A stretch of DNA of 37,251 bases from an uncultured Candidatus Peregrinibacteria bacterium (GTDB lineage Bacteria > Patescibacteriota > Gracilibacteria > UBA1369 > LOWO2-01-FULL-3), in the NCBI GenBank assembly GCA_903847465.1, contig CAINDQ010000146.1, forward strand, positions 1 through 37,251. The letters are read 5' to 3'. The notes under the pieces are model-generated. The model was not told the origin of the DNA, did not search any database, and saw only the letters and a list, made by a program, of their open reading frames with translations. Every line of letters begins with the position of its first letter. Positions within the stretch are counted from its first letter, which is position 1. The translations under genes were made by a program, and so were the position numbers. Positions 2,065 through 5,338 of the stretch are shown here, in pieces.

Positions 2065-3525
2065 TTATCTATCTGTTAACAATTTTTCATACTCTTGAAC
2101 CTCTCTATAAATCCTTCTTATCAATTGTTTATAAGTTCCAGTTTCATTAGCAGACCAATCCATTAAAAGCCTTCCTTCGGGGTAAAATCGGCCATAATCC
2201 CCCTCCACAAAAAGTTTCATATTATCAAGCAACTCCCTGACAATTTTTTTATAAAAAGCCGCTTCTCTTTCATCTTTCGGCATTTCAAAATTTGCACTCC
2301 TCAAAGCTTTCATTATCTTCTCCCAATTATCCTCCATGGCAAAACTATAACTACATCCTTTCCCTAAATTTTCTGCGACAGAATACAAATAAGCAACTAA
2401 ATGTCTCAGGGCTGTGACAGTTTTGAAATTATGACCATCGTCCAAATCATAATAATACGATTCCGGATTGTATATTCTCGGCCCATTCATCATCATTCCA
2501 CCCATCGTAAAGTTTGGAAATGGCATACTCGTATAAACGCGTTTCACTTCAGAAAGAGGTTTTATATTTCCCTCGTTTGGATACAAGTCGGAAGAAATAT
2601 GATACTCGGAAATCATCGCACCATCTGGACTCAAAATTGTTTCATCTTCACAAGCAAATCCCGCCGCTAAAGTACCCGGAACATGCAGCTTCCCAATACC
2701 AACCTCACGCACAGGCTTGATCAGCATTCTTCCGGAATAATTCATTCTATGCTCCTCACTTATCCAATCCAAAATTCCATTTTGCGTTAACCTTTCCCTG
2801 TTTTGACCACTCAAAGATAATTGCATTTTTAATTTCCTAAAATCCCCACCCATCAAAGCTTTAAAGACTTCTTCCCCACCAGGAGGACAACTAGATAAAA
2901 TATTTATCTCCGTATAATCAGGATTATTTTCTAAAAAAGTTACCAATTCCAAAATCCAAGGATAATCACACGGATCCGAAGCGTCATACAAAGTGATTTT
3001 TCCAAAAGTTGGATGAAACTGATTGAGAAAAGCCATCAACGATTCAGGCTCCAAAACTTGCCTATTATTTTTACCATAAGGCTTCGCACTAGCGGCGCAA
3101 AATTTACAATTTCCCCTACAAAAACTCGACAACTGTACAATCTTTAACCCCATCCCAAAAGCATGCAACTCTCTCTCAGGTATCCCTGCCAAAAGAGCCC
3201 TTACGTCCACCTCCTCCACGCCAAATTGCAAAGTATCCAAAAGTCTTTGCTGAATAAGTTGCAAGTCCTCAGGCAATCCTTCTCGCGGAGCGAAGTCTCT
3301 AGCACAATCATCGATCATGTCCCCATATAATTCCTCTCGTACTTCAAGAGCCTCATCCCAACCAGCGGCATCATGAGGATCAGGCACGCCATTTTCCGCT
3401 TCAGACAAGCCCTCTTCGATTCCAGGCACGCCATCCTCCGCTTCAGACAAGCCACCTTCGATTCCAGGCACGCCATCCTCCACTTCCGGCAAGCCACCTT
3501 CTTTTGTTGTTTTTCCAGCCATCAT
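2065..3525 (-). CDS. Radical SAM protein with repetitive acidic N-terminus
   Basis: The protein has 486 residues. The motif CRGNCKFC (C136, C140, C143) is the CxxxCxxC signature that binds the SAM-linked [4Fe-4S] cluster, followed by a barrel-like region (LYDASDP near 175, LSLSGQ near 240). Residues 11-48 hold about three copies of a 14-residue acidic unit of the form GLSEAEDGVPGIEE, which does not belong to the core fold and looks like a disordered tail. Two ATG codons stand in tandem at 3525 and 3522; the first is used here. A near-perfect promoter (TTGACA-N17-TACAAT) sits 20-48 nt upstream, so the leader is about 12 nt with no Shine-Dalgarno sequence. The gene is followed after 1 nt by the YkgJ-like gene. 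I do not recognise a named subfamily and the substrate is unknown. Confidence 0.85.
   Translation of the reverse strand: MMAGKTTKEGGLPEVEDGVPGIEGGLSEAEDGVPGIEEGLSEAENGVPDPHDAAGWDEALEVREELYGDMIDDCARDFAPREGLPEDLQLIQQRLLDTLQFGVEEVDVRALLAGIPERELHAFGMGLKIVQLSSFCRGNCKFCAASAKPYGKNNRQVLEPESLMAFLNQFHPTFGKITLYDASDPCDYPWILELVTFLENNPDYTEINILSSCPPGGEEVFKALMGGDFRKLKMQLSLSGQNRERLTQNGILDWISEEHRMNYSGRMLIKPVREVGIGKLHVPGTLAAGFACEDETILSPDGAMISEYHISSDLYPNEGNIKPLSEVKRVYTSMPFPNFTMGGMMMNGPRIYNPESYYYDLDDGHNFKTVTALRHLVAYLYSVAENLGKGCSYSFAMEDNWEKIMKALRSANFEMPKDEREAAFYKKIVRELLDNMKLFVEGDYGRFYPEGRLLMDWSANETGTYKQLIRRIYREVQEYEKLLTDR
3382..3495 (-). repeat. In-frame tandem repeat, 42-nt unit, about 2.7 copies
   Basis: Near-identical 42-nt units follow one another (3495-3454, 3453-3412, 3411-3382) and encode 14-residue acidic units in the N-terminus of the radical SAM protein. 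Units 1 and 2 differ at only a few positions, so the array is recent or homogenised and could vary in copy number by slippage. Confidence 0.9.
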
Positions 3526-3603: not shown

Positions 3604-4104
3604 CTACAGCCAATCATCAACGAACTTATCAAACCAATTTTTCGCCTCATTTTTCGGCCAATCCGTAAATGTTTGGGGCTTCATTTGGTTCGAAGAAGCT
3701 TCCTTTACCGCATGAGGACGCCGAGCCTTATTATCCGCCGCCCATTCATTCAGATGAGCCACTTCCTTTTCAATCAAATTCGGATCGCTAATATAGGCAT
3801 ATACGAATCTAAACATTGGTCCATGATCTCCGCGCAAATTTTCCTCGACAGCATCTTTTGCCACAAGAGCCTTTAAATCCTGTAAAGCTGTTATTGCTCC
3901 AGTATAATCATATGCCCACTGCAAAATCCTCATCATCGGCATACAAGAACCTTCCCCAGAAATAGAGGGCATTCCCGGTTCAGACGGAAAACTGCCGTTG
4001 AAATTCTTCGACGCATTCCTTCCCTTATTCAACTCGGCTATAAAAGCGTCGATGATCTGCGGAGTCACTTTCCTCTCGGGAGATTTTTCTACACGCTCAG
4101 CCAT
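3604..4104 (-). CDS. Hypothetical protein, 166 aa
   Basis: I do not recognise this protein. It is 166 residues, soluble, with no signal peptide or membrane segment, rich in charged and aromatic residues, and ends in a tryptophan-rich tail (FTDW, KNWF, DDWL). It has a single cysteine (in GSCMP) and no obvious catalytic motif; the predicted character is mostly helical. It has its own promoter (TTGACT-N16-TACAAT) and lies upstream of the radical SAM/YkgJ-like pair in the same orientation, which have a separate promoter. A link with the radical SAM proteins is suggested only by position. It is kept as a real gene because the promoter, length and amino-acid composition are those of a coding frame and the opposite frame (3373-3876 plus) is a shadow. 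Confidence 0.75.
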   Translation of the reverse strand: MAERVEKSPERKVTPQIIDAFIAELNKGRNASKNFNGSFPSEPGMPSISGEGSCMPMMRILQWAYDYTGAITALQDLKALVAKDAVEENLRGDHGPMFRFVYAYISDPNLIEKEVAHLNEWAADNKARRPHAVKEASSNQMKPQTFTDWPKNEAKNWFDKFVDDWL

Positions 4105-4132
4105 AGATTGATTGTTAAGTAGTAAGTACTTA

Positions 4133-4160
4133 ATTGTACTACCGCCAAATTACAAGTCAA
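4133..4160 (-). promoter_or_regulatory. Promoter of the 166-aa gene with inverted repeat at the start site
   Basis: Minus-strand TTGACT (4155-4160), a 16-nt spacer and TACAAT (4133-4138). Transcription should start near 4126, inside a perfect 7-bp inverted repeat TTAAGTA-N5-TACTTAA (4115-4133). An operator-like dyad at this place could allow repression, or it could form a 5' mRNA hairpin; the sequence cannot decide. Confidence 0.65.
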
Positions 4161-4233
4161 CGGCTTTCCTCTACGCAAAAGAAGCGTGAGAGGCATTCAC
4201 CCCTTCCACGCTTCATACAGAAGCGAGATTTTA

Positions 4234-4405
4234 ATTATCGTTGGAAACGATAATGCTCTGTTGAGTCGTCGATGTCCACTACTTGACCCCCAGTGTGACC
4301 AAGTGGGTGCTCGCACTCTCCAGGAAAACCCGGAAAGAATGTAAAGCTCCCTTAGGTGTGTTGATAGAGAGAGTAATTGAGACTCTAACTTACACAATAG
4401 AGCAT
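4234..4405. ncRNA. Candidate structured RNA in the 408-nt gene-free region 4105-4512
   Basis: No convincing protein is encoded in 4105-4512. An 11-bp helix (4253-4263 with 4395-4405, one G-U pair) encloses about 130 nt that fold into three arms: a CCACT/AGTGG-type arm around 4275-4306, a 9-bp stem closed by a four-base loop near 4315-4340, and a long arm near 4352-4393 built on AGAGT/ACTCT. A perfect 9-bp hairpin (4234-4254) abuts the closing helix; further hairpins lie on both sides (CGCTTC/GAAGCG near 4209-4225; CCTTT/AAAGG near 4428-4440). No tmRNA, RNase P, SRP or 6S signature was found. Unpaired segments are A-rich on the plus strand, favouring that strand, but a promoter-like pair on the minus strand (4410-4438) would start exactly at the closing helix. 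Strand is therefore left open. Confidence 0.5.
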
Positions 4406-4409
4406 CTAC

Positions 4410-4438
4410 ATGTTAGTATTTCGCCAACCTTTTGTAAA
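4410..4438 (-). promoter_or_regulatory. Possible promoter for the candidate RNA, minus strand
   Basis: TTTACA (4433-4438), 17-nt spacer, TAACAT (4410-4415). The predicted start near 4403 coincides with the 5' strand of the closing helix at 4395-4405. The -10 match is only 4 of 6, so this is a weak call whose main support is its position. Confidence 0.35.
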
Positions 4439-4512
4439 GGGCTTGGGAAAGCCATATGGTGAGTGTCGGCACCACTAGAAATCGCATTATCATTTGGAAT
4501 TTACCACTACCC

Positions 4513-5148
4513 CTAGGTACCCAAGAGCAAAACCATTGCGATCAAATCATGCAAATACGTCATCACGTAGCCAAAAATCGAGAATCCAATCAAATCTCCC
4601 AGAATAAAAGCATCAATCAAAATTATCGCAACAAAATATTTCACGCCATTATGCAGATATTCCGCATATTGCCTATGCCATCTCTGCGGAACGATCAACC
4701 CAATAATCTTCGAACCATCAAGTGGTGGAAACGGAAATAGATTAAAAATTCCCAGATAAATACTGACATGAAAAGTCATCACAAAAAATAAAGTAAGAAA
4801 TTCCGGCATCACGCCTCCTAGATACTTCCATGGCAACGCCACAGCAAACGCCAAAACAAAATTCGACATCGGACCAGCCAGCGCAGTCAACGCATTGTCA
4901 CGAACTGGGTGTTTGAAATTTGCCGGATTCACAGGAACTGGCTTTCCCCAGCCAATAGTTCGCGTCAGCAAAAAAATCACACTACCAATTGGATCAAGGT
5001 GTTTTATTGGATTTAGAGTCATTCGCCCTGCCAGTTTTGCCGTTGGATCACCAAGGTAATACGCCGCAAGCGCATGAGAGGCCTCGTGAATAGTTAGAGT
5101 GAAAACCAATGCCAGAATGAAAGCTAAAAACTGAATCAATTCGCCCAT
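4513..5148 (-). CDS. Site-2-protease-like intramembrane metalloprotease (peptidase M50)
   Basis: The 211-residue protein is almost entirely membrane-embedded, with about five to six hydrophobic segments. The zinc-binding HEASH motif (H21, E22, H25) lies in the first segment, and the third metal ligand region appears as NLFPFPPLDG (D144) in the usual NPxxDG position, so both halves of the active site are intact. This matches the short FlxH-like/YdiL-like M50 group without PDZ domain. Such proteases cleave transmembrane helices of signalling proteins or signal peptides inside the membrane; the substrate here is unknown. The gene is divergent from tRNA-Ser and is followed by the 408-nt gene-free region. 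Family confidence is high. Confidence 0.93.
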   Translation of the reverse strand: MGELIQFLAFILALVFTLTIHEASHALAAYYLGDPTAKLAGRMTLNPIKHLDPIGSVIFLLTRTIGWGKPVPVNPANFKHPVRDNALTALAGPMSNFVLAFAVALPWKYLGGVMPEFLTLFFVMTFHVSIYLGIFNLFPFPPLDGSKIIGLIVPQRWHRQYAEYLHNGVKYFVAIILIDAFILGDLIGFSIFGYVMTYLHDLIAMVLLLGT

Positions 5149-5250: not shown

Positions 5251-5338
5251 GGAGAGATCGCATAGTGGTCGAGTGCGCACGCTTGGAAAGCGTGTAGGTG
5301 TCACAGCCTCGGGGGTTCGAATCCCCCTCTCTCCGCCA
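5251..5338 (+). tRNA. tRNA-Ser (anticodon GGA)
   Basis: Acceptor strands GGAGAGA (5251-5257) and TCTCTCC (5328-5334) pair perfectly; the discriminator is G5335 and a CCA end is encoded (5336-5338). The anticodon arm CACGC-TTGGAAA-GCGTG places GGA at the anticodon, reading UCC and UCU serine codons. The T arm is GGGGG-TTCGAAT-CCCCC. A long variable arm between anticodon and T arms marks a class II tRNA, as expected for serine. Confidence 0.96.

Follow-up and report, generated by a model that had tools for sequence, protein, structure and literature searches.

A divergent, single-copy 6S RNA gene below the Rfam cut-off in a small-genome bacterium

The structured stretch at approximately 4406 to 4251 on the minus strand of the window (the whole 37,251-nt stretch of DNA analyzed here) is almost certainly a single-copy 6S RNA gene with a predicted sigma-70-type promoter, and its membership in the family suggests the standard 6S action. 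Judged by its sequence, it is a divergent representative of an already known family, 6S RNA (SsrS). The gene lies in a 408-nt gap (4105-4512) between the minus-strand ORFs 3604-4104 and 4513-5148 in which, as an earlier note had recognized, there is no credible gene. That note proposed a stand-alone noncoding RNA starting at a minus-strand promoter and matching no known class. The first part of the proposal is probably right, but the second is not, as the RNA is identified as 6S RNA by Rfam family RF00013, by its relatives, by a clade covariance model (R1), and by that model's recovery of E. coli ssrS.

When the 461-nt region was searched with permissive filters, RF00013 matched 4251-4406 on the minus strand over its full length (model positions 1-187 of 187) with 39.7 bits and E = 1e-6, which contradicts the absence of a 6S signature reported from inspection by eye. 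The score falls below the gathering threshold of 46.4 bits, which is a database setting rather than a biological feature, and the 6S RNA is therefore invisible when the window is scanned with default Rfam settings, which report only a tRNA-Ser. That the gene was overlooked by eye, and narrowly by the Rfam cut-off, can be explained by its being a divergent 6S copy in a small-genome bacterium. The corresponding RNA of a congener (G001), 77% identical in a BLAST search with the window RNA, scores only 31.7 bits against RF00013. Among 41 related genomes, RF00013 found matches in 23 and scores above the cut-off in nine (best 69.8 bits), using filters that missed the window copy. Furthermore, the sites found by RF00013 in relatives, e.g., in G002, G003, G013, G015, G016, and G024, were also recovered by BLAST when the window RNA was the query.

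The clade model R1 was built from 23 relatives found by RF00013, with the RNAs of the window and the congener left out. Its sole match in the 37-kb window is at 4248-4409 on the minus strand (107.3 bits, E = 6.3e-24), and one 6S locus was found in the whole genome, i.e., the gene is single copy. Because its 23 members were chosen by RF00013, R1 is not fully independent of Rfam, although the window RNA itself is absent from it. A reciprocal test was performed by running R1 without filters on a 1.2-kb segment of the E. coli K-12 genome that contains ssrS. The ssrS region ranked first (481-670, 27.9 bits, E = 8.2e-7; runner-up 4.0 bits), and the ends of the match are nearly equal to the annotated ones (484-666). 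The recovery of E. coli ssrS by R1 indicates that the window RNA is homologous to an experimentally known 6S RNA. The two RNAs are alike in length (∼155-185 nt), in having a closing stem, a central bulge, and an apical stem, in their end-to-end match to the family model, in having their own promoter (here a predicted one), in being single copy, and in the reciprocal model match. Unlike E. coli ssrS, the window RNA is divergent, scores below the curated cut-off, and has a shorter apical arm.

An unknown class of structured RNA, or a 6S-like RNA with another target (e.g., core polymerase, like Ms1), would be compatible with an RF00013 score below the cut-off and with a 6S function that is derived here from the family. 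Such a reading is nevertheless very unlikely in light of the end-to-end 6S alignment, the relatives that score above the cut-off, and the reciprocal recovery of E. coli ssrS. Among the other Rfam families searched against the 461-nt region with permissive filters, Ms1-like ones included, nothing was better than E = 8.9 (a thermometer model). Ms1 RNA of Actinobacteria is described as structurally related to 6S RNA (PMC9130861). Ms1 binds core polymerase, whereas the window RNA matched 6S alone at a meaningful E-value.

The 6S RNA gene carries promoter-like and terminator-like sequences on its own strand, both of which are conserved as sequence signals between the window and the congener. The promoter-like pair at 4438-4410 (minus strand), already pointed out in the earlier note, consists of a −35 box TTTACA (4433-4438) and, 17 nt away, a −10 box TAACAT (4410-4415), and its position predicts a start near 4404. 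In the congener, the corresponding position is occupied by TTTACA-17-TAAAAT, and TTTAC with a TATAAT-like partner is found upstream of 6S in most family members. Downstream of the gene, a terminator-like hairpin followed by UUUU (4177-4214, minus strand; −19.6 kcal/mol, z = −3.6) has its counterpart in a hairpin with U6 at the equivalent place in the congener. The RNA had also been proposed as a leader before the radical SAM group, and it does lie upstream of the minus-strand ORFs 3604-4104 (166 aa) and 2065-3525 (weakly radical-SAM-like). A cis-acting leader of these genes, riboswitch-like or other, is however highly improbable. Homologues of neither gene were found beside the RNA in other loci (∼1.5 kb on each side), such that the downstream genes vary among relatives while the RNA persists. 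In addition, the terminator-like hairpin separates the RNA from these genes, and the 6S match spans the full model. Near-identical repeated units, GATTCCAGGCACGCCATCCTCCGCTTCAGACAAGCCACC, were observed at 3400-3500 in the window, at the N-terminal end of ORF 2065-3525.

The minus-strand sequence of the 6S RNA (4251-4406) has a folding energy of −52.3 kcal/mol (z = −3.41), which is more stable than expected by chance; one of 200 shuffled sequences folded equally well. The plus strand over 4234-4405, the span originally described, reached only z = −1.86, and seven of 200 shuffles were as good. Single-sequence folding by itself would not have settled the question. The 11-bp long-range helix between 4253-4263 and 4395-4405 is present, with all 11 pairs (one G-U) on the plus strand and 10 of 11 (one A-C mismatch) on the minus, or coding, strand, where 4395-4405 forms the 5′ strand and 4253-4263 the 3′ strand of the closing stem according to the alignment consensus, folding, and covariation. 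Further hairpins occur outside this helix, as had been stated. The three arms that the helix was thought to enclose were not recovered; the conserved structure is a rod with no three-arm junction, composed of a closing stem, a large central bulge whose 3′ side carries a small 3-bp hairpin, and an apical stem. This is the canonical shape described for 6S RNA (PMC8414754).

Covariation was measured on a structure-free MAFFT alignment (A2) of 25 sequences. Pairing is possible in 91.9% of the cells; the figure drops to 78.6% when partners are shuffled and to 42-53% when they are slid by one to three columns, the slide control being biased in favor of the consensus structure since that structure was drawn from the same alignment. 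Double-changed cells number 121, against 39.5 in the shuffles. Double-sided changes were observed at 20 of the 32 consensus pairs and in all six consensus helices, and in the closing stem, for which a covariation check had been suggested, they affect five of the eight conserved pairs. The features that mark a 6S RNA, i.e., the closing stem, the large central bulge, and the apical stem, are preserved through compensatory changes. Chance folding of intergenic sequence, which a single-sequence z of about −3.4 might still accommodate, has a negligible probability, being already contradicted by the comparative evidence from covariation, from the E-value of 6e-24 under R1 (window excluded), and from the conservation of the RNA in 50 of 60 relatives.

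Directly upstream of the 6S RNA gene is a gene for a peptidase of the M50 family (site-2-protease-like; 4513-5148, minus strand; Pfam PF02163, E = 2.3e-14), which adjoins 6S in most family members, vs. zapA/fau at E. coli ssrS. In 22 loci, window included, the M50 stop lies 103-106 nt before the start of the 6S model, and the spacer (4410-4512 on the minus strand of the window) is therefore of near-constant length. Two blocks are conserved in it. The first, ATGTAGTGGTG, is located at the M50 stop, and coding constraint on the end of the M50 gene can explain part of it; the second, TTGTGGTG, follows ∼32 nt later. A palindrome, TGGCTT-N4-AAGCC (4440-4454, minus strand), stands directly before the −35 box and is near-invariant in the 22 loci; its family-wide form, which touches the −35 box, is TGGCTT-N4/5-AAGCC. 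In each of eight genomes, the exact palindrome-TTTAC pattern has a single occurrence, located at 6S in every case. No conserved RNA fold worth naming was found in the spacer, which is likely a putative protein-binding control region. More tentatively, the ∼104-nt spacer might be a DNA control region dedicated to coupling 6S output with a particular regulator or with the M50 gene, a suggestion that could well prove wrong. Control of 6S through such a region is undescribed in the open-access literature searched. Past the M50 gene, a tRNA gene pointing away lies ∼0.8-1 kb from 6S in the window (tRNA-Ser, 5251-5338, plus strand) and in three of the relatives scanned (L017, L026, and L041).

The most likely function of this RNA, by analogy with its family, is the standard one of 6S RNA, which combines promoter mimicry, sequestration of the holoenzyme, and release by pRNA synthesis (summarized in PMC8414754). 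For the window RNA, we infer polymerase binding, sequestration, pRNA synthesis, and the conditions of expression from family membership. Transcription from the sigma-70-type promoter on the minus strand would yield an RNA of ∼155 nt, or a precursor reaching the hairpin at 4177, which would fold into the rod with its large central bulge. The rod would imitate a melted promoter and hold RNA polymerase with the main sigma factor, and housekeeping transcription would be reduced under slow growth or stress. During recovery, the polymerase would copy the central bulge into a short pRNA, predicted on the plus strand from ∼4363, and its synthesis would rearrange the 6S RNA and free the enzyme. The predicted pRNA template is ACUCUCUCUAUC, at 4363-4376 on the minus strand, which lies on the bulge's 5′ side and is near-constant across the family. 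It is assigned by the RF00013 alignment and by its conservation, with a putative start site in the alignment column that we take to be the E. coli pRNA start.

R1 found matches in 50 of 60 relative genomes, with one match each in 49 of the 50. In G009, a weak second match (G009:C107:178-336, minus strand; 28.9 bits, E = 4.8e-4) was observed beside the strong one, possibly a second 6S copy, contamination, or chance. Across the phylum, at least 101 of 286 good-quality genomes have a match, a lower bound given the strict filters and a model built from a single order. In the open-access literature searched, no study of 6S in CPR/Patescibacteria was found, and the only joint match concerns SRP. The gene described here adds a divergent 6S RNA for bacteria with very small genomes (probably Patescibacteria). 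The Rfam cut-off conceals 6S genes in this group, since it is passed in only 9 of 41 relatives, whereas the clade model finds the RNA in 50 of 60.
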